Source of the DNA: Linderina pennispora
Taxonomy: Eukaryota > Kickxellomycota > Kickxellomycetes > Kickxellales > Kickxellaceae
Direction: 5' to 3'
NCBI RefSeq assembly: GCF_002104995.1
Contig: NW_024468254.1
Location: 992,001-1,056,000, forward strand
DNA length: 64,000 nucleotides
The notes below the pieces were generated by a model, which saw only the letters and a program-made list of their open reading frames with translations, was not told where the DNA came from and did not search any database. The position numbers and the translations under genes were made by a program. Positions 40,552 to 50,858 of the stretch are shown in pieces (position 1 is the first letter of the stretch; each line of letters opens with the position of its first letter).

Positions 40552-41503
40552 GGCAAAAGTTCAAATGCAAGTGGTAATAAGAAGTGTATGAGGTCTTGCA
40601 AGGAAACCCCAGAGACATACGTGTGCGGCTGGAACGTGTCTGGCACGCAATTCCTACACTCTGTCTGAAGAGTGCTGGAAACAACTGATTAGCCCCTTTT
40701 GGTGGCTAACAATGCTATTTGGTCGCTATTCACATCTGAATAGCTGGTGAACCTGAAAGGTGTATTTTTGAGTGGCGGTGGCATCTGCTCCACGTTCCTG
40801 ACTTGTTTAGTCCTGGCGTGGGTGTAGAGTGCTGGTATTATTCAGGTTGGCCACGCCACTACCGAGCTTGTGAGTGACTTGGCATAGGAGGTAATCTTTA
40901 CCTATATATAAGATTTTATAGTCTAAAAAGTGTCCGACCACCTGCTAGAGCCCTATTAATTGGTTAAAAAAAACTCGTAAACCTCAAAGCGAGTTCGGGT
41001 TACTTGCTCTGTAAACTCCTTTTGATCTTGTGCGGCATCTGACCTCATCGGTGAAACCAGGGTGACAGGCTGGTATTGTAGTGGTCACAAGTCTCCACTA
41101 GATATCTCCATTGGTTCGGCGCAAGAGCTGCTCTCATTGTCGGTCAGCCTGATAACTTCCATGGCGTCATCATGGTGGTCATCACCGGCTGCGCAACACT
41201 CTTAGGATATCTATTTATGAGCACCTATTGAATAAGGCCATATAGCTCTTCTAGCGGTCATGCAATATTTGTGGGTTTATTTTACAAATTAATTTCTTAT
41301 GAACATGCGTAAGCGGTAGTATTTGGGCCACAATGGGCCCAGTCTGTATAGACTGATTCAAGAGACTGTATCGGTGCTAAGGGCCCCAAGAACCATACAA
41401 GCCAGATCATTTTTAATAAAAAGTTCTTAATGCTATGCATACGCAATAAAGCAAAACCGAACAGCGTCATTTCTCTTCTTACTTTGCCTATTGAATTTCT
41501 CAA
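40552..41503. other. Intergenic region between the ligase gene and the Fanzor relic
   Basis: About 950 bp, AT-rich. It includes short inverted repeats (AGTCT...AGACT near 41340; GGGCC...GGCCC nearby) upstream of the Fanzor start. Terminal inverted repeats of a Fanzor-carrying transposon were looked for and not found by eye. Confidence 0.4.
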
Positions 41504-42839
41504 ATGAATATTACCCGCAGCACTACTGTCATAAAGACATCACTTGGTGGTATTGGCTTCCGTGATTCTATGTTGCCCCGCCTAGAGCAATTTGTACACA
41601 GCGTCAATATCATCAAAGAGCATACATACATGCTTGCACGATGGATACTACTCCATCAGCTAGCTGACGGGGATGCTTTTGACCCTGGAACATTTGTGAA
41701 AAAGGGAGTTTTTTTCGTTCGATTTATTTATTCATTTATCACAACCTGAAGGCAAAGACTGTCATATCTGCCAAGGATTTTGTCAACCCGAAGGATAGGT
41801 CAGAACTGTCAAGTGCAGATTTCGGTGATGCAATTAGATACCATATTTATGATTATCTATTGCATAATGGCAATATTGAGCTATATGGCATACGTGAAAT
41901 GAATCAAGTAGCAACATATGTGGATACCGAGCTGATGACAGCATACAAGAACAACATTGTGTTGCACTATGGCACTTTCCTACAGCGGATTCTGGCCAAA
42001 TTGATTGATATTCGCAGCCGCAAAAACACACTGCACAGTACAATGGGCAATGTGTCCAAGGCTGAGTTTAATAGTGCATGTCAAGTGTGTATTTATACAC
42101 CTGCACAGAAGCTCCGCCAGGCAGTTGCCTCTAGACGCCCTGATCTCAGTGTGCTCACTCCACCGATGCTTGAAATCTACAACAAGCTGGCACCAGTCCT
42201 TAATGCCTATGGTGCCAAGTACAGATTCGCCAAAGACAGCCGATACTATGATGCCAAGGCAAATCCACTTAAGCATCTGTGTGCATACATTCGCCTATGC
42301 CAGCCTATCGAGAATGAGCAGCTTGGCAAGTCTCCCCCCAATGCTTGCCTCTGCAGACATCATGGATCCCAGGCCATGTGCGCTTAGACAAGCAAATAAT
42401 CAAGCAGGTGTTTGTTTCGAAAACACGTGAGGAGGTTACCAAGATCAACGCAGCAAAGAGGGCAGCAACAGAGGCAAGGAAAGCAGCAGAAAGGGGCGAA
42501 AAATTAGCCAAGAAGGCTGCACGCGAAGCAGCGAAGATGCCATCAGATGAAACAGAGGCCACTGCAGCAACTACAGCAGTAGCGGCTGATTCACTTGCTG
42601 GTGTATCAGCGGCAGCAGCAGACACTGTTGCAGCACTTAACAATGCATATGCATCAGCACCCCCAGTCTGTGCACACGACCCAGTCCAAGGGATCACACA
42701 ATCTGTGTGGGATGTGTGGGGCCAGGTCGCAGATCTAACATCAAAGCCATTTAAGGCGCATGGTGATAGAAAATTCCATGGAATGGCAACAACAGATGGT
42801 GTAACGATATGCATTTTGCTACAAGACAAGATATTCAAG

Positions 42840-42990
42840 GCTGATGGTGCAGTAGATGCTGATAGTGCAGTAGATGCTGATGGTGCAGGAGGCGATGCTA
42901 CGGGAGGCGATGCTGTGGGAGGCAATTCTGTGGGAGGCGATGCTACAGGCAATGTTGCAGGAGGTGGTGCTATAGGAGGCAATACTATAG
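42840..42990 (+). repeat. Gly/Ala/Asp-coding imperfect tandem repeat in Fanzor
   Basis: Short repeated units of the type GATGGTGCAGTAGAT and GGAGGCGATGCTACG encode an acidic Gly/Ala-rich linker between the N-terminal half and RuvC-I. Most Fanzor homologs would not be expected to share this expansion. Confidence 0.6.
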
Positions 42991-43235
42991 CTGACTGTCG
43001 CTATATCCACCAGATCCCACAGCCAGAGCTTCAGAATCTGAAAGGCCACTGTGTATTCATCGATCCAGGTCGGGGCGATTTACTGTATATGATGCATGAA
43101 AATAGCAGCAATGGGAAAGAGGGTGAAAAGATGCTCTACCACTACACATGGCAGCAGCACAATAAGGAGCTCAAGCTGCGTCACTATGACAGGATTCGTC
43201 GGGCTACAAAGGATCAAGTCCCAGAAGATGCTGTC

Positions 43236-43240
43236 CGCAG
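43236..43240 (+). repeat. Target-site duplication, left copy
   Basis: CGCAG directly before the 5' LTR; the identical pentamer follows the 3' LTR at 49168-49172. Confidence 0.9.
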
Positions 43241-43457
43241 TATCAGAATTAGATTTTCCTCATTTCATTGTTCTATTTTCTCTTTATATTTTGCTACCCA
43301 GTCCAATACTGGACTGGATCCTTCTTGTCTTCTTTCTATATTTTTCTACTTGCTTAGTGCCGTTCTGCACTCTCTCACATTTTTAACCAATATATCCATC
43401 TTCGGGTGTTCCAGCCCGCTCTATAATTTTATTTATATCGCTTGTAACCTTCTGACA
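43241..43457 (+). repeat. 5' LTR (217 bp)
   Basis: Identical to 48951-49167. It contains TATATT and TTTATATT promoter-like stretches and T/C-rich sequence; the ends form a short imperfect inverted repeat (TATCAGAA...TTCTGACA). Confidence 0.95.
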
Positions 43458-43471
43458 GGTTATGAGCCCTG
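43458..43471 (+). promoter_or_regulatory. Primer-binding site for a half initiator tRNA-Met
   Basis: GGTTATGAGCCCTG abuts the LTR. Its complement matches the anticodon stem-loop of fungal initiator tRNA-Met (CAGGGCUCAUAACC), not the tRNA 3' end. This is the half-tRNA priming mode known for Drosophila copia and yeast Ty5. Confidence 0.85.
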
Positions 43472-43669
43472 TGCTCCTCTAGTTATCCTCACACAGTTAT
43501 TATCTATTCCTCCTTTATTTCTTTTATTCGCAATATCAAAAAAAAAAAAAAAAAAAGCATATTATTTTATCATTATATCATCTTATTCTAGTACCACCCC
43601 TCTCCTTTCCATTATATTATCCTTACTTCTCCCTCCCTCTTCTTCTAACTGTTGAGTCATACGTTGAAC

Positions 43670-46600
43670 ATGGATGACAAGATTGACCATGGTCGACCTA
43701 GTAGGCAGCTCACCGGTGCCCAGAACTATGAGCTGTGGCTGGCAGAAATCAAACTCCAGCTACTGTTTGCCGGTCTATTGGACAACGCTTTTGAGCCAAC
43801 CAAGCTTGAACCGAAAACTGATGACACAGATGAGACAGCTGAGAAGAAGCGCAAGGACCATATACGCACTGATGCACAGACGCAGTACAAGATTCTCCAG
43901 ACGCTACCAGAGGAAATTGCAAGCAAGGTCATGCACAAGTCCCCAAGCGAGACCATGCAGTACTTGAGTAGTGCCTATGGATCGGAAACAGCAACTGCTC
44001 AGGCCAACGAGATCATCCGAGCCCTATCTGTCAAGCAAGGACCTACTGAGCCACTGATGCAGTATGTCCTAGAGAGTGTTGAGATGATAAACAAGCTCTC
44101 GAACAAGTCCCTTCCCTTGGAAAAGGTTGCACTGGTGGCCCTCATCAATGGTGTCAGACCTGAGTACAGCGCCCTACGTGAACGCTTTATGATGACCAAG
44201 CCGGAGACCCTAGCAAGCAAGGATATCATAGACAACGCCAACCTGATCCTGCAGTTCAACATATCAGCGAGTATGGAGGCATCTACAAAGGTCAGCGCAG
44301 CGAGTGCAGTTAGGTCCCAACCAGTATGCCAGCTATGCAACATTCGTGGTCATACTGCGATAAAGTGTGCAAGATTCATTGATGCTGGTCGAGAGAAACA
44401 GGATGAACATCGAAAGATTAAGTTCTGTGGAATCTCATACTGGGCACAAGCAGCAAGTGCGGCACCTGATTTCCCAACATCAATGACAGATCTGAGCCTA
44501 CCGACCACTTGGGTCTTAGATAGTGGAGCCTCGGCAAGCTCGACACCGCACGATATCTTCACAACATTCGATGGCAGCACGACCAGCTCGATGATCGACT
44601 TTACGGGCAAGCAGAATGAATGCAGCGGAGTAGGAACAGTGGAGGTATCTGACGGCAGCAACTCCCTGGAAATCTCCAATGTTCACTATGTCCCTGGTTC
44701 AGCGATGAACCTCCTGTCAGTTTCCAAGCTGGCTGCAAATGGAATGCAAGTTCTGTTTGATAAGGACAGGGCATATCTGTACAAGGATGGCCAAGTCTAC
44801 GGCGCAGTCAAGCAGACCAACAGCCTCTACTTGGTCAGTCCAAACATGCTCGACAATGCTGAACTTGTCAACAATGCTCCCCGTGTGGTCAAGTCGGATG
44901 CTGGACACTCTACCATCTTGGCTGATATTGGTTTTACTGCCGACAACAATAAACCAATTTCCCACTATGCAGCTGGTATGAGAACGGCGACAGTGCGAGG
45001 ACTCTCGATGAATGACGCTCATGCTCGATACGGTCATGCTTCGACACAGTACCTTCGCAAAATTGGTGAAGCCCTCAAGGTTACCTTTCATGGTGAACTG
45101 GATGCTTGTGAGGCTTGCTTCCAGGGCAAGCCACGCGAGAGAGCCCGTCGATCCCATTTTGCAAGGGCAACAGAGCCACTCGAGGTTGTGTACTCGGATG
45201 TCTGCATGGTCAACTATGCGAATCCGGGCAAATACAGGTACTTTGTTACATTCATGGATTCGTATTCCAGCTTTGTCTGGATTTATTGTATCCAAAACAA
45301 GTACGATGTATTTGACAAGTTCAAATTGTTTGTGGCGTATGCGGAAAACCACTCGCAGCGCACAGTCAAACGACTACATACAGACAATGGCAGTGAATTT
45401 GTAAACACAGCGATGAGAGAATTTTGTCAAGAACGCGGCATTCTGCATACAACCACTTCGCCTCACTCACCACAGGAGAATGGACCGTGTGAGCGGTACA
45501 ACCAGACTGTAGTAGGCATGGCGAATTGCATGTTGCTACACAGTGGTGTACCACTGGAATTCTGGCCATTCGCAGTTGAGTATGCCAACGAGACGCTGAA
45601 TTTGCTAGCCAAGAAAGCCCTCGACATGAAGTGCCCGGCAAATCTGTTTGGCTTCAAGTCTGACATACTGAATCTCCATACATTCGGGTGTCTTGTACTT
45701 AGCAACATACTGGTACACATGCGAGAGAAACTAGGTGACAAAGTGCAACGTTGTGTCTATTTGGGCAACAAGCATGGAAAAGCAATTCTCTATCGTTTGG
45801 AAACTGGCCGAGTTTTCTCAACAACTCGTGCTCTTTTCCAAGAGCAAGAGTTCCCACTCAAAAACGGAGAGAGGCATCCCGGTTGGATATATTTCGACCC
45901 AGCAACAGGAAAATCACCGATTAGTACTGGAGGCAGTGGGATGATTATCAGAGCCGAAAACGATACAGCTGCGACTGTTGAGGGTGCAGATGGTCAGCCA
46001 AGCAACAACAGCATGATCGACGACGATGGAGAAGAGGTGACAGACACATTGATGGAGGAGGAGTCAGACGAGGACATATTCCACGGCACGACCCCAAATT
46101 CCTTAGATCCGGTTCCCTATATCGGTGAACATGATCGGTGCACTGGAATTTCTGATGATGAGTCAATGTCCTCAGCGTCCCATGAGGACCTAGGACAGTT
46201 TGTTGAGAACAATGGTTCAACAACGAGGACAAATGTCTCAGAGTATTCCCAGCGTAGTGATGATCCACAGGAGCCATCGAATGCAAACTCTCTCTCACCA
46301 AATCTACCAAGTCAACCACGATCAATAATGGTGAGAAATCCAGATAGAGTACCACCACCACAGAGTCTGCCGGAACTGCCAACAAACGCTGCTCAACCAT
46401 CAACCCATGCCGCAGAGCCCATTGCCAGATCAACTCGCTATCAACATCAACTGAGAGAAAATGAGAGATGGGCAAGAGAAATTGAGGCTGGGCCGATTGC
46501 AGGGAGAACTCGTAGTCAAATGAATCGGTTGAATCCGCGAAACATTGGTAGACCAACAGTGCAAGTCCAACCAAGAGGCACTCGTAGGCAGCCACAGGGC

Positions 46601-48940
46601 AGAAGACAAACAAACCAACCACAGTCAATGCCAACTGACTCAAATCGGTCTGTGGTGATACCAGTGCAGACTGAGCCACAAGTGCAGAGAAGTGCGACTC
46701 AAGCAGATCACCAGCCTAGTCCAGATATCTCATACATAGTCGACTCACCAGTATCGGAGATAGACCTAGAGATCCAACCACTAAATTCGCCAGAACTCCC
46801 CATGCTACCCGAGCCGCGAATGCCTCAGATGCTGCCAATGCCCACCAATGACACTACAATGTCTGAGTCGCATGCAGGACCACTGGTTGAAATGAGAGAA
46901 TCAGCACTCGAGTTGACTAGGGCTAGGGATCCTGAGTTGAGGGATGAAATGATGAGTTCACCCCCTCCAGAAGCACCAAGGAGAACTCGAACCTATCAAT
47001 CTCTAGGTGATACTGGCACTGATCCTGATGCACAAGTTCAGCCAAAATATCGGCGCAAAAACCACCAGGGTAAACGCATATATGAGGCATCCTCAGAGAG
47101 AGCTCTACCTCAAGCAGATATAGAGATCATAGATCTGCTACCATATTCAACTCGCAGGGCCCAACTAGAGTGGAATCGTGCAGAATCATCACGACAAAAT
47201 GATGTGATTGATCTTACCCTGGAGACTGATCTAGAATCAACCCAAACATATGCTGATCAGTCAAGCACAAATGAGCTTATGTTTGGTCTTGGTCAGATAA
47301 TGCTCCATACGAGCCAGGCCGACAAGGACCAATATGCAAATGACAAGTATGAAGACCAGCTGATGTCACATGGAACCATATATATGTGTGCCTCAGTCCC
47401 AGGTCCAGACAACTACCGTCAAGCAGTTCAAGGTATGGAGGCGAGTAAGTGGCTGACAAGCATCCAGTCAGAACTTGACTCAATCCGTGAAAACGAGGTC
47501 CTTGAGATCGTAAAGAAACCCACTGGCAGGCGCATTCTGGACACACGGTGGGTGTTTGTTAAGAAGCTCCCAGCTGATGACAAACCACCGATCTATAAAG
47601 CTCGACTTGTGGTTCGTGGCTATATGCAACAACCAGGTGACTATGGAGACATCTTTGCCCCAGTAGTGCAATATAAGTCCATCCGCATTATTCTTGCAAT
47701 AGCGGCACAACAAGGACTACAAGTTCACTGCATGGATGTCAAAACAGCATTCTTGAATGGACACCTAGAAGAGGATGTCTATATCAGGATCCCTGATGGA
47801 CTACCTGGTGATCGCCTATCTACAGTCTGTAAGCTGAACCGATCATTATATGGTCTAAAACAAGCACCTCGAGCATGGAATAAGCGACTGCGGGATTATC
47901 TCATAGATAACCTAAAGTGCAAGCCATTCGCATCAGATCGAGGGGTCTTTGTTTTTGGTGACAACAGGTCCTTCTGCTTCATCGCAACTTACGTTGATGA
48001 TCTGATTCTCGCAGCCACGGATGATCAAGTACTCACTACTGTGAAGAAAGGACTTGCGGCAGAGTTTCAAATGAAGGACCTGGGTGAGGCAAACAGCATT
48101 CTCGGCTTCAACCTCAAGCGGACCAAGTCGGGCTTCTTAATCCATCAAAGAAGTGCGATACAGTTAATGCTAGACAAATTTGGCATGACTGCTGCTAATC
48201 CAAGTGCGTTGCCACACTGTACATCAGTTGACTTGGTTCCAGCCGAAGCACATGAGAAAAGAGCTGATGCAACGTTGTATAGATCAATAGTTGGATCTCT
48301 ACAATACCTGGCAATGGTGACCCGACCCGACATTGCCCAGATAGCTTCAGCTCTGGCATCATATAACCAAGATCCATCGCTAAAGCATCTCGGTATGGCC
48401 AAGCGAGTGCTCAGATACCTAAAGAAGACCCCAGAATTAGGCATTGAGTACAAACGCTGTGACAAGCTAGCTCCAGTTACCTTCACTGATGCCTCGTACA
48501 ACCTGCGTACTCCAAAGGAAATGGTGATAGGGTATGCTGTACTTCTCGCGAATGGTGCAGTCTCATGGAAGTCCACGAAGCGAAAAGGAGCCGCTCCCCA
48601 GTCGACGACAGAAGCTGAGACGATTGCTGTTAATAGCGGGACAAAGGATCTGAAATGGACCATGGACTTCCTCCTCGAAGCCGGATTCCCAGTAGACAGA
48701 TGCGTAATCTATTGCGACAATGCGGCTACAGTATCAAACATCAGGAATGGCAATACCACTGACCGTAACAAGCATTATGTACGCGACATTGTCCTACCAA
48801 ACCAGATGTTTGAAGAGAAGCTCATAGACATCAGACACGTGCCCACTGACCAACAAACCGCTGACTTCCTAACTAAAAGATTACCAACTCAGGGATTCGA
48901 ACGATGCCGGAAAGACATGGGAATGAATGAAATATCGTAA
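43670..48940 (+). CDS. copia-type Gag-Pol polyprotein
   Basis: A 1,756-aa uninterrupted polyprotein. Gag occupies about 1-260 and ends in a CCHC zinc knuckle (CQLCNIRGHTAIKC at about 222-235). The aspartic protease site is WVLDSGAS. Integrase follows with HHCC zinc residues (HARYGH...CEAC) and the DDE core Asp-Asp-Glu (YSDV; HTDNGSEF; ENGPCERYN). A long low-complexity linker leads to the reverse transcriptase (NRSLYGLKQAPRAW; active site YVDD) and RNase H (FTDASY; STTEAE; YCDN). All catalytic residues are present. The frame opens at ATG 43670; the whole of Gag and Pol is one frame, so no ribosomal frameshift is needed. Confidence 0.95.
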   Translation: MDDKIDHGRPSRQLTGAQNYELWLAEIKLQLLFAGLLDNAFEPTKLEPKTDDTDETAEKKRKDHIRTDAQTQYKILQTLPEEIASKVMHKSPSETMQYLSSAYGSETATAQANEIIRALSVKQGPTEPLMQYVLESVEMINKLSNKSLPLEKVALVALINGVRPEYSALRERFMMTKPETLASKDIIDNANLILQFNISASMEASTKVSAASAVRSQPVCQLCNIRGHTAIKCARFIDAGREKQDEHRKIKFCGISYWAQAASAAPDFPTSMTDLSLPTTWVLDSGASASSTPHDIFTTFDGSTTSSMIDFTGKQNECSGVGTVEVSDGSNSLEISNVHYVPGSAMNLLSVSKLAANGMQVLFDKDRAYLYKDGQVYGAVKQTNSLYLVSPNMLDNAELVNNAPRVVKSDAGHSTILADIGFTADNNKPISHYAAGMRTATVRGLSMNDAHARYGHASTQYLRKIGEALKVTFHGELDACEACFQGKPRERARRSHFARATEPLEVVYSDVCMVNYANPGKYRYFVTFMDSYSSFVWIYCIQNKYDVFDKFKLFVAYAENHSQRTVKRLHTDNGSEFVNTAMREFCQERGILHTTTSPHSPQENGPCERYNQTVVGMANCMLLHSGVPLEFWPFAVEYANETLNLLAKKALDMKCPANLFGFKSDILNLHTFGCLVLSNILVHMREKLGDKVQRCVYLGNKHGKAILYRLETGRVFSTTRALFQEQEFPLKNGERHPGWIYFDPATGKSPISTGGSGMIIRAENDTAATVEGADGQPSNNSMIDDDGEEVTDTLMEEESDEDIFHGTTPNSLDPVPYIGEHDRCTGISDDESMSSASHEDLGQFVENNGSTTRTNVSEYSQRSDDPQEPSNANSLSPNLPSQPRSIMVRNPDRVPPPQSLPELPTNAAQPSTHAAEPIARSTRYQHQLRENERWAREIEAGPIAGRTRSQMNRLNPRNIGRPTVQVQPRGTRRQPQGRRQTNQPQSMPTDSNRSVVIPVQTEPQVQRSATQADHQPSPDISYIVDSPVSEIDLEIQPLNSPELPMLPEPRMPQMLPMPTNDTTMSESHAGPLVEMRESALELTRARDPELRDEMMSSPPPEAPRRTRTYQSLGDTGTDPDAQVQPKYRRKNHQGKRIYEASSERALPQADIEIIDLLPYSTRRAQLEWNRAESSRQNDVIDLTLETDLESTQTYADQSSTNELMFGLGQIMLHTSQADKDQYANDKYEDQLMSHGTIYMCASVPGPDNYRQAVQGMEASKWLTSIQSELDSIRENEVLEIVKKPTGRRILDTRWVFVKKLPADDKPPIYKARLVVRGYMQQPGDYGDIFAPVVQYKSIRIILAIAAQQGLQVHCMDVKTAFLNGHLEEDVYIRIPDGLPGDRLSTVCKLNRSLYGLKQAPRAWNKRLRDYLIDNLKCKPFASDRGVFVFGDNRSFCFIATYVDDLILAATDDQVLTTVKKGLAAEFQMKDLGEANSILGFNLKRTKSGFLIHQRSAIQLMLDKFGMTAANPSALPHCTSVDLVPAEAHEKRADATLYRSIVGSLQYLAMVTRPDIAQIASALASYNQDPSLKHLGMAKRVLRYLKKTPELGIEYKRCDKLAPVTFTDASYNLRTPKEMVIGYAVLLANGAVSWKSTKRKGAAPQSTTEAETIAVNSGTKDLKWTMDFLLEAGFPVDRCVIYCDNAATVSNIRNGNTTDRNKHYVRDIVLPNQMFEEKLIDIRHVPTDQQTADFLTKRLPTQGFERCRKDMGMNEIS

Positions 48941-48950
48941 AACGGGGGTA
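48939..48950 (+). promoter_or_regulatory. Polypurine tract
   Basis: AAAACGGGGG directly upstream of the 3' LTR; it overlaps the end of the polyprotein stop codon. It would prime plus-strand synthesis. Confidence 0.6.
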
Positions 48951-49167
48951 TATCAGAATTAGATTTTCCTCATTTCATTGTTCTATTTTCTCTTTATATT
49001 TTGCTACCCAGTCCAATACTGGACTGGATCCTTCTTGTCTTCTTTCTATATTTTTCTACTTGCTTAGTGCCGTTCTGCACTCTCTCACATTTTTAACCAA
49101 TATATCCATCTTCGGGTGTTCCAGCCCGCTCTATAATTTTATTTATATCGCTTGTAACCTTCTGACA
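48951..49167 (+). repeat. 3' LTR (217 bp)
   Basis: Identical to the 5' LTR at 43241-43457 in every position compared, indicating a recent insertion. Confidence 0.95.
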
Positions 49168-49172
49168 CGCAG
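49168..49172 (+). repeat. Target-site duplication, right copy
   Basis: CGCAG, matching 43236-43240. Confidence 0.9.
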
Positions 49173-50016
49173 AGCAGAGGCTGAGCTTTCCAAGCACTGC
49201 TGCCGGACCCTTAGCCCAGCAAAATTCCATGCCTACGTTGCTGCCCGTGCATCTGTGCGGTGTGTCCTAGCACCGTTTTATGCCAACATGATGACAGCGC
49301 AAAGGTTACCAGAGCAGCAGCTCACTAAGTCAAACAAGCAGCACCAAAGGCGCTGGAAGGCCCATCCAGGTGTCAGTACCAGTCCCAAGGTGTACCTGCT
49401 TCACCGCAAGCTGCGCCTTGATTCATTCATGAACCAGGCCCGTGCAGACCACAGGCTTGCCGCAAAACTCTAGAGCAAGTTCGGTCCAGATCCAGTGCTG
49501 ATCATGGGCAATTGGAGTGCGCTGATGGCCCGATACCATGTGCCGATTCATGGCAAGGAGTGGTACAACAAGTTCAAGCACCATGGCTTTGAAGTCTATC
49601 TGATCGACGAATTTCGGACATCGTCGATGTGCCCGTTCTGCTGCGAAAAGTCGCTGCAGACATTCCGGCATGTTCCCAATCCGCGGCCCTACCAGAGATC
49701 GAAGAACCCAATTGTGAAGTGCCATGGCCTTCTCCGCTGTACAAGCGAGTCATGTAAGCGGGCGATGGCACAATACAGGTGGGCCTATTCGTCTCGGCTC
49801 TTGAACCGCGATCTCGCAGCAGTTCTAAACTTCAGACTCATTTTCCAGTCACTCTGTGATTCAGGCAGTATTCCTGAACAGTTCTGTTGCCCTACGGCCA
49901 TTGTTGCCAATGCTTCTGGCACCACCCCTGCAACAAAGAGGTCGTGCAAGAGGCGTGCAGCAGCAGGCGATTCTGCTGCCAGCAGCAGCGAACCAGCGCT
50001 GAAGCGCCTGCGCTGA
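49173..50016 (+). pseudogene. Fanzor (TnpB-like) nuclease, 3' part, with premature stop
   Basis: Continuation of the Fanzor reading frame after the copia insertion. An in-frame TAG at 49471-49473 interrupts it. The remainder contains the nuclease signature: DEFRTSSMCPFC (Glu codon 49609-49611, first Cys pair 49630-49641), a second zinc-ribbon Cys pair (49738-49740 and 49753-49755), and RuvC-III Asp in LNRDLAAVLNF (codon 49810-49812), with a basic C-terminus. No acidic residue is obvious at the usual RuvC-II place upstream of the zinc ribbon. The Glu of DEFRTS may take that role, as has been described for Fanzors. It ends at TGA 50016. Confidence 0.8.
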
Positions 50017-50858
50017 GCAGGCCACCAAGGTGGGAGATGTCCATGATCGACATTGCACGAACAACCATCCGACACGTTCAAATGATCAGTTTGCCGTGAT
50101 GCCCTTATCGACGTGTCAACTCATGCTGACTAGCAGCCGAGCTCGCATCGCGGGTGGGGTAATTCTAGTATGCATAGCTGGAATAAAGCACACTACCTTA
50201 AAGTATAATGGATATTTTATGTAGCAATTAAGATGGCCGATTCGACACCAAAGACGTATTACTCTTCAAACAACAATCTAATGTCCATGTCCCAACTACA
50301 AACAGTTGCTAAAATAGGTTTGTCAAGTTTATAATGTAGAGTAATATTTAGTAAGGTACATTCAGGGCGATATATGCATGTGTGGTCGATGTTCTATTGA
50401 GGTGTTCGCAGTTAATAAAAAGATAGCTTAAAACTTGCGGTACATGGTGCATTTATGTTTAAATACCACTTTATTGTTGGATATAGTCAAATATACATGG
50501 CTCATGAAACACTAGTATACAGTACCTCAAGACAGCTTGAAATCATCTTCTTTGGTAGCTGTGCCATCCGAAATGTATTGGTATAACCTACATCGCCAGT
50601 GGTCCTCCAAGCAGACCAGGTATCACAGTTAATATAGCACCAGCAAACCTCTGCATATGCTACGCATCTTTGCATTAGGGGCATATCCGCATCGAGACAT
50701 TTTAAAACAGGGTAATCGCTTGATCAGATACGCACCTGGATTTTCGTTTTTTTTCCTTTGAACCACCAGCTTGATGAAAAATTGACCTAGTTTTCTTTTT
50801 GGTTGACTGTACTTGTTTCTTCCTCAATTTCACAACCACATTTTCACAGCGGGGTACA
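50017..50858. other. 3' flank of Fanzor and TMA16 promoter
   Basis: About 840 bp, AT-rich after 50160. A 7-bp inverted repeat (GACACGT at 50071-50077, ACGTGTC at 50111-50117) lies where an omega-RNA scaffold could be encoded. No gene is supported. Confidence 0.4.

Follow-up and report, generated by a model that had tools for sequence, protein, structure and literature searches.

The locus raises the question of whether a resident Fanzor gene was caught here in inactivation by a copia retrotransposon, as the original prediction held, or whether the broken gene is part of something larger. In the window, which is the whole 64,000-nucleotide stretch of Linderina pennispora DNA analysed, the two flanks of the retrotransposon had been proposed to carry complementary halves of one Fanzor/TnpB-like protein, and both were shown to match Fanzor1 proteins of known structure. 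Positions 49474-50013 matched Fanzor1 of P. parasitica (PDB 9cf0; E=6.9e-34) and of S. punctatus (E=2.1e-21), pieces of the left half matched Fanzor1 at 42318-43240 (E=1.4e-10), 41683-42384 (E=3.1e-12) and 41495-41746 (E=5e-4), and 49168-49470 by itself gave a weak match (E=0.27). The halves also rejoin in frame as proposed: EDAVRRAEAELSKHCC is read in one frame once copia and one CGCAG are left out, and the paralog L028 reads likewise. At RuvC-II, IDEFRTSSMCPFC contains the E-alt signature (E-FRTSSM-CPFC), with the glutamate six residues ahead of the CxxC. The gene and its lesions are arranged as follows, the coordinates of the three RuvC motifs being hand-counted:

41504..43240, + strand: left part of the Fanzor1 ORF, from the start Met (MNITRST) up to the point where copia inserted
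41708..41709, + strand: frameshift, two bases extra compared to L028, exact position in the run ambiguous
42339..42339, + strand: frameshift, one base absent compared to L028
43056..43079, + strand: RuvC-I FIDPGRGD, the Fanzor DPG signature
49173..50016, + strand: right part of the Fanzor1 ORF, to the stop codon
49471..49473, + strand: TAG in frame
49603..49641, + strand: RuvC-II IDEFRTSSMCPFC and start of the zinc ribbon
49804..49830, + strand: RuvC-III NRDLAAVLN

The view of a single gene did not hold, since at least 150 matching places were found in the same genome (150 scored of 268 candidates) and the gene is carried in a Helitron; a lone resident Fanzor gene was ruled out by this repeat family. 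Paralogs with an open frame do exist: a Fanzor frame of about 860 residues was open in 9 of 20 chosen copies, each time as a single frame, which ruled out introns. The DPG motif (FIDPGRGD) and the E-alt spacing were present in all nine, copies that had themselves been picked for open frames. Paralog L028 matched PpFz1 from P. parasitica (E=2.4e-83), SpuFz1 (2.9e-33) and GtFz1 (7.9e-06). Judged by sequence, the family protein is Fanzor1, based on the E-alt, the long similarity to characterised Fanzor1 proteins and the DPG, which is defined for Fanzor1 in PMC10711439. NCBIfam and Pfam profiles barely detect it (guided_TnpB 15.6 bits and TNB 20.3 bits, both below cut-off), and L028 gave no Pfam match at E 0.01. 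Among the best 8000 candidates of a protein search, one relative was found, in Coemansia sp. RSA 2673, with 37% identity over half of the query.

Variants common to at least three of 18 copies comprised 81 synonymous and 73 nonsynonymous changes and no stops, and singletons comprised 80 synonymous and 180 nonsynonymous changes and three stops (p=1.7e-5 for singletons versus shared variants); variants found in exactly two copies were omitted from this count. The singletons show no difference from the transition expectation (p=0.30). The pattern of shared substitutions is evidence of purifying selection on Fanzor, and such selection keeps Fanzor in the lineages that spread.

The ends of the carrier were read against family copies, and the family copy L028 matched window positions 40894-43240 and 49168-50168 in blastn. 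Without copia and one target duplication, the window copy measures about 3342 bp:

40894..40894, + strand: host A ahead of the element, giving the target ATA together with host TA at 50169-50170
40895..50168, + strand: Fanzor-carrying Helitron copy, from 5′ TC to 3′ CTAG, with copia nested
40895..40973, + strand: 5′ terminal region common to the RepHel Helitron, 87% in the decayed window copy
50141..50155, + strand: 3′ subterminal hairpin, decayed in the window copy, coordinates hand-counted
50165..50168, + strand: CTAG (CTRR) 3′ terminus

The family has the features of a Helitron: its elements start with TC, end with CTRR, sit between a host A and a host T and have a 3′ subterminal hairpin. 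Most other copies read have GCTCGC-ATC-GCGAGC about 10 nt ahead of CTAG, and the order at the family 3′ end is hairpin, then CTRG; the alignment used for this end excludes five opposite-strand loci (L007, L012, L014, L017, and L020). A TIR transposon was ruled out, as the TC and CTAG ends have no obvious inverted repeats. By eye, a possible 5′ hairpin (ATCTT...AAGAT) was also noted; such a hairpin, along with asymmetric terminal inverted repeats, is a mark of the Helitron2 subgroup.

In the 26-Mb genome, 220 places match the family 3′ end and 128 match the 5′ end. An A precedes 54 of 65 exact 5′ ends genome-wide and TA follows 113 of 115 exact 3′ ends; two 5′ ends read as single insertions (L015 and L022) have no preceding A, and a recognisable 5′ end is absent in three of 20 fetched copies (L030, L033, and L035). 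Inspection by eye showed no target duplication at the junctions that were read. A joined-flank search, run for 12 sites (the last query being a few bases short) and three more, found unoccupied relatives for 3 of the 15 sites. These depart from clean A^TA joins, the differences amounting to about 2 to 11 bp, and at the repeat-family site some copies read GTA. In the likely reading, what the window contains is one dead member of a Helitron family in which Fanzor1 is the only recognised gene and whose living members move as Helitrons.

The family would transpose with the putative helicase/HUH protein of RepHel Helitrons having the same 5′ end. These partners contain Helitron_like_N and PIF1 (E=2.6e-77) domains and end in a similar 3′ hairpin and CTAG; at L045, the 5′ ends of RepHel and of the Fanzor element are 98.8% identical over 81 bp, and of the seven Helitron_like_N places into which 13 matches were grouped by hand, six have the common 5′ end upstream. 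All eight RepHel 3′ ends found (two mismatches at most) adjoin a family 5′ end, and seven of them continue into Fanzor-element sequence, compared to 2 of 33 Fanzor-element 3′ ends read (p=4.7e-7), the 33 being a non-random set with duplicated insertions. There is an even chance that these head-to-tail pairs are a by-product, formed where the common 5′ ends of resident Fanzor elements recombine with RepHel circles or receive them as insertions. The roughly 80 bp in common could be a substrate for recombination; at one homologous site, C112 carries the pair and C208 the Fanzor element alone, with the same 5′ base; and Helitrons inserted at or within the 5′ ends of other Helitrons are described from other fungi (PMC5148889). 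Against this, four distinct 3′ flanks (L026, L027, L033, and L044) and five distinct 5′ flanks (L044, L045, L055, L060, and L061) could mean that the pairs moved as units, so that the flank data may fit both readings.

Fanzor1 in non-autonomous Helitron2 elements has been described for CRe-1, CRe-2, and CRe-3 of Chlamydomonas reinhardtii (Bao and Jurka, 2013; PMC3627910). As in Linderina, Fanzor1 there lies in a Helitron whose 5′ end is in common with confirmed Helitrons, many loci are named (150, 70, and 35), 3′ ends outnumber 5′ ends and internal deletions occur (PMC3627910). The CRe elements differ in having a TTTT target, frequent target duplications and five or ten exons, whereas the Linderina family has ATA, CTAG ends and one exon, and a RepHel directly ahead of the Fanzor element, as found here, is not reported for CRe in the available part of PMC3627910. 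Fanzor in Helitrons is thus known from Chlamydomonas, and the Linderina family is a new, tractable variant. It is abundant, many of its copies are open, its ends are defined and a partner has its 5′ end in common; it also shows a selection signal and includes a decayed copy with a recent copia. The closest solved protein is PpFz1 (PDB 9cf0; PMC11423790; E=2.4e-83 to L028); judging from match gaps, the presumed cyclophilin-binding FRI insertion stretch covers about 105 residues in PpFz1 and about 30 in L028, and a run of about 100 residues in L028 that is rich in Ala and Lys has no PpFz1 counterpart. SPu-1/SpuFz1 of Spizellomyces punctatus is likewise a multicopy fungal Fanzor1 with protein-less relatives (ghost loci) and with Gypsy/Ty3 elements inserted within or close to Fz genes (PMC10432273), but SPu-1 is described there as an inverted-repeat DNA transposon with TAM CATA and no transposase between the repeats, in contrast to a Helitron with a RepHel partner. 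FoHeli1/2 of Fusarium oxysporum also prefer AT then A and show tandem and 5′-end insertions; their ends are Helitron2-like, and Fanzor is not mentioned in the available part of that source (PMC5148889). The available part of PMC12730594 mentions neither Fanzor nor Linderina. According to PMC10432273, what Fanzor nucleases do biologically is not known.

The choice of landing site by the Helitron family suggests how Fanzor may aid its spread. In IS200/IS605 elements, TnpA-TnpB combines an HUH enzyme with an RNA-guided nuclease, and the insertion target and the TAM coincide. A Helitron-Fanzor parallel to this system is drawn in PMC10432273; in Linderina, a Rep-helicase stands in place of TnpA, and the modules are separate elements. 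The TAM of P. parasitica Fanzor1 is 5′-ATN-3′ (PMC11423790), and the Helitron target ATA fits it, although PpFz1 is only distantly similar and comes from another fungal order. This suggests that the Helitron target is the TAM, in which case insertion would erase it. The guide RNA would end in the element 3′ end, with the adjoining 3′ flank supplying the guide. Where the target is unoccupied, ATA, fitting an ATN-type TAM, would stand ahead of the guide-matching flank, and an occupied site would read GTA; Fanzor would therefore cut the unoccupied copies, and repair of the cut from the occupied copy would leave the element retained or copied. We give this role, with the guide from the 3′ flank, unoccupied sites cut and the occupied copy as repair source, about the same weight as its negation. 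A fuller reading is tentative and rather less probable: the pair would be a eukaryotic counterpart of TnpA-TnpB in which the ATA target is the Fanzor TAM, the change from ATA to GTA on insertion protects the occupied site, the terminal Helitron hairpin is the last guide-RNA stem-loop and the result is gene-drive-like homing. The family predicts an AT-type TAM, a guide RNA ending at CTAG, and cutting of unoccupied sites with occupied ones spared.

That the agreement of the Helitron target with the ATN TAM is due to chance has somewhat less than even probability. Agreement at two fixed bases arises by chance about 1 time in 16, and AT then A is also preferred by fungal Helitrons elsewhere (PMC5148889). 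The target therefore need not be set by Fanzor. The agreement of target and TAM in IS605 TnpB argues against coincidence. So does IS607, where the TnpB TAM includes the transposon's crossover dinucleotide (PMC10711439).

The proposed role would place the guide RNA here:

50057..50168, + strand: 3′ end region, candidate omegaRNA scaffold, decayed in the window copy

Six tests of 3′-end conservation gave one p=0.048 (4 of 112 versus 81 of 863 shared-variant columns) and otherwise p=0.11 to 0.30, so that the 3′ end appears at best weakly more conserved. Folds of the 3′ end were unremarkable (z -1.9 to +0.1 in six copies), as was the fold that starts at the stop codon in the window copy (z +0.88). 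A conserved guide RNA thus gained no support from the folds, with conservation tests mostly non-significant. In the window, ARAGORN gave no tRNA, and Rfam gave no match at gathering scores.

Helitrons frequently capture genes, and Fanzor might on that account be a captured passenger with no part in transposition, the copies amplifying only through their Helitron ends. Shortened copies are indeed common (in 41 of 150 scored rows, from 268 candidates, the match to the 180-residue query starts only at its residue 58-62), and L044, the sole shortened copy read whole, has lost RuvC-I and RuvC-II; such copies could, however, be served in trans. The purifying selection on shared substitutions and the catalytic motifs in all nine open copies, with the caveat that these were picked for open frames, also speak against a passenger, which we consider unlikely.

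The remaining part of the original prediction concerned copia itself. Its insertion within the Fanzor gene was borne out by identical LTRs, a 5-bp duplication and copia-type domains:

43236..43240, + strand: target duplication CGCAG, left
43241..49167, + strand: nested copia LTR retrotransposon
43241..43457, + strand: 5′ LTR, identical to the 3′ LTR (0/217 differences)
43649..48940, + strand: open frame of copia, 1763 aa between stops, with gag, integrase and RT pieces
48951..49167, + strand: 3′ LTR, 217 bp, identical to the 5′ LTR
49168..49172, + strand: target duplication CGCAG, right

As in Ty1/copia elements, the integrase (rve, 2.8e-18) lies ahead of the RT (RVT_2, 1.3e-66); a copia-type gag match reached 25.3 bits, below its cut-off of 27.

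The claim that the gene is caught in inactivation by copia is probably wrong. It is very improbable that a resident gene worked until copia broke it and that gene loss is under way: the insertion point does lie between RuvC-I and RuvC-II and is recent, as the LTRs are identical, but the window Fanzor has two further frameshifts and a stop, the window copy differs from the family by 5.1%, and Fanzor, open in 9 of the 20 chosen copies, is not lost from the genome. Because of these three other disabling lesions, and of 170 substitutions in 3341 positions relative to the family consensus against 0/217 between the LTRs, copia most likely landed in a Fanzor gene that was already dead and was probably the last of the lesions. 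The case shows that, among all copies in a family, a conspicuous broken gene can be the one that tells least. The decay of the window copy is marked by a strong excess of CpG transitions, found at 52 of 320 CpG positions compared to 42 of 1344 other C/G positions (p=8e-16).

The original prediction described one Fanzor gene in two halves that flank a copia element and rejoin in frame. Both sides of the element were shown to match the Fanzor1 of Parasitella parasitica (PpFz1; PDB 9cf0), at 49474-50013 (E=6.9e-34, the best match), 42318-43240 (E=1.4e-10), 41683-42384 (E=3.1e-12) and 41495-41746 (E=5e-4); 49168-49470 by itself gave a weak match (E=0.27). When the copia element and one copy of its target duplication (CGCAG) were taken out, the halves joined in frame, as predicted, to give EDAVRRAEAELSKHCC, which is also present in the paralog L028. 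The copia element has identical LTRs of 217 bp and contains pieces matching the Pfam families rve (2.8e-18), RVT_2 (1.3e-66) and, slightly below its cut-off, Retrotran_gag_2 (1.2e-05). Its LTR had 29 matches in the genome including the two in the window, and the best other copy was 99% identical. The features of the locus are:

40894, host A
40895-50168, forward strand, Fanzor-carrying Helitron
43241-49167, copia element nested inside the Helitron
50169-50170, host TA

The claim that copia inactivated the gene is probably not correct. Compared with L028, the window copy contains two additional bases near 41708, lacks one base near 42339, both causing frameshifts, and carries an in-frame TAG at 49471-49473. 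Since these lesions come with 170 differences from the consensus of 18 other copies across 3341 positions, while the two LTRs differ at 0 of 217, we infer that copia was most likely a late arrival in a Fanzor gene that was already dead. Of these 170 differences, 52 are CpG transitions (52/320 CpG positions compared to 42/1344 other C/G; odds ratio 6.0, p=8e-16), and because of this strong over-representation the sequence of the window copy looks like decayed methylated DNA. Ahead of RuvC-I, the Fanzor frame also contains 18- and 15-bp tandem repeats (42840-42946), where insertions of 3 and 15 bp, both in frame, distinguish the window copy from L028.

A search of the 26.2-Mb genome with the C-terminal 180 residues gave 268 candidates, of which 150 were scored and all 150 matched. 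The 3′ end of the element was found at 220 places and the 5′ end at 128 (up to three mismatches), and reversed-pattern controls for both searches gave 0 matches. The search for intact paralogs succeeded: nine of 20 fetched copies, picked among those with longer open frames, were open from start Met to stop (857 to 876 aa), and all nine kept FIDPGRGD, E-x6-CPFC and NRDLAAVLN. DPG and the alternative E are described as fingerprints setting Fanzors apart from most TnpBs (PMC10711439). Single-copy variants in the open frame (80 synonymous, 180 nonsynonymous, 3 stops) showed no difference from the split expected when all single transitions are counted (872, 1667, 50; p=0.30). Variants common to at least three of 18 copies, those in exactly two being left outside the tally, numbered 81, 73 and 0 (p=1.7e-5 compared to singletons), the copies having been picked for long frames, a choice that disfavours stops. 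The simplest reading of these sequence patterns is that purifying selection acted on the Fanzor protein in those lineages that have spread.

The carrier of Fanzor1 is a Helitron. Most copies follow an A, start with TCTTTACC and end in a hairpin and CTAG or CTGG, followed by TA; across the genome, exact 5′ ends had a preceding A in 54 of 65 cases, and exact 3′ ends had TA after them in 113 of 115. Among the 11 5′ ends that lack this A, five were junctions with RepHel, a helicase-bearing Helitron with the same 5′ end. The single insertions read without a preceding A were L015 (G) and L022 (T). No recognisable 5′ end was found in three of the 20 fetched copies (L030, L033, and L035). Extra TCTTTA/TCTTTACC units often extend the 5′ terminus (L021, L023, L024, L031, L044, L045, L055, L060, and L061), and most of those read up to the outer edge have an A before them; these repeats look like slippage or repeated end use in rolling-circle replication. 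Unoccupied relatives, found for three of 15 queried sites, deviated by about 2 to 11 bp from an exact join. This much target was seemingly lost on insertion (L034/L046, L038/L047, L040/L048-L052, and L044/L062), and both breakpoints often lay at A^TA; another explanation for the apparent loss is repair scars in the unoccupied copies.

The TAM, the motif beside the Fanzor target, is reported as 5′-ATN-3′ for PpFz1 (PMC11423790). The sequence expected is A-TA-flank at an unoccupied site and CTAG-TA-flank at the 3′ junction of an occupied one, so that insertion would swap the A required by the ATN TAM for G. Provided that the guide derives from the 3′ flank, as it does in other Fanzors, unoccupied sites would be cleaved by the nuclease and occupied ones left uncut. 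In this proposed mechanism, the Helitron hairpin would occupy the position of the one short stem-loop described between the first stem and the guide in PpFz1 (PMC11423790), and there is a precedent in IS607 TnpB, whose guide scaffold is described as having taken up a fixed base of the flank (PMC10711439). By eye, ATA lay ahead of the guide match at the unoccupied L038 site. The unoccupied L034 site also had ATA there in one of its two possible alignments, and copies of the L040 site had either GTA or ATA. The latter site belongs to a separate dispersed repeat family (L040 flank, L048-L052) present at several places, into which at least one Fanzor element has inserted. Conservation of the 3′ end was at best weakly higher (p=0.048 in one of six tests, 0.11 to 0.30 in the others), and its folding was ordinary, with nothing remarkable.

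About 80 bp of the family 5′ end are shared (98.8% identity) with the RepHel element at L045, which encodes Helitron_like_N and PIF1 domains according to domain matches. Six of seven Helitron_like_N places (13 matches, grouped by hand) had the family 5′ end upstream. All eight RepHel 3′ ends found (up to two mismatches) directly abutted a family 5′ end, and seven ran on into Fanzor-element sequence, from 163 bp to a whole element within the sequence covered; the eighth (L056) diverges 55 bp into the 5′ end. By eye, something like a family 5′ end followed only two of 33 Fanzor-element 3′ ends (Fisher p=4.7e-7 for 8/8 compared to 2/33), a non-random sample including duplicates of one insertion (L029/L039, L015/L053). 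In these two, L037 (at 6490) and L059, a diverged second 5′ end stands right after the 3′ end; short head-to-tail Fanzor-element arrays thus exist. At one site on two related contigs, C112 carries RepHel followed by a shortened Fanzor element and C208 a lone Fanzor element of 3295 bp, with an identical start base and 3′ junctions 9 bp apart. RepHel-Fanzor pairs may move as units, or they may form by RepHel insertion at, or recombination with, resident 5′ ends.

Fanzor1 was described in Chlamydomonas Helitrons in 2013, with three families of 150, 70, and 35 named loci (PMC3627910), and other Fanzor-bearing transposons are reported to reach hundreds of copies (PMC10711439). As far as the searched open-licence literature shows, new features are the Kickxellales family and its strict association with RepHel, together with the signal of selection and the match between target and TAM. 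LTR insertions in Fanzor loci are already described in S. punctatus, whose ghost loci the shortened L. pennispora copies resemble (PMC10432273). By hand count, 41 of the 150 scored rows begin at query residue 58-62, and this recurrent shortened element appears to have been amplified. In L044, the only one of these that was fully read, element positions 1735 and 2814 are joined, which removes RuvC-I and RuvC-II and leaves the N-terminal coding part and both element ends in place; because of the common start, the other 40 presumably carry the same deletion. Deletions of other kinds were found in L002, L015, L019, and L053.
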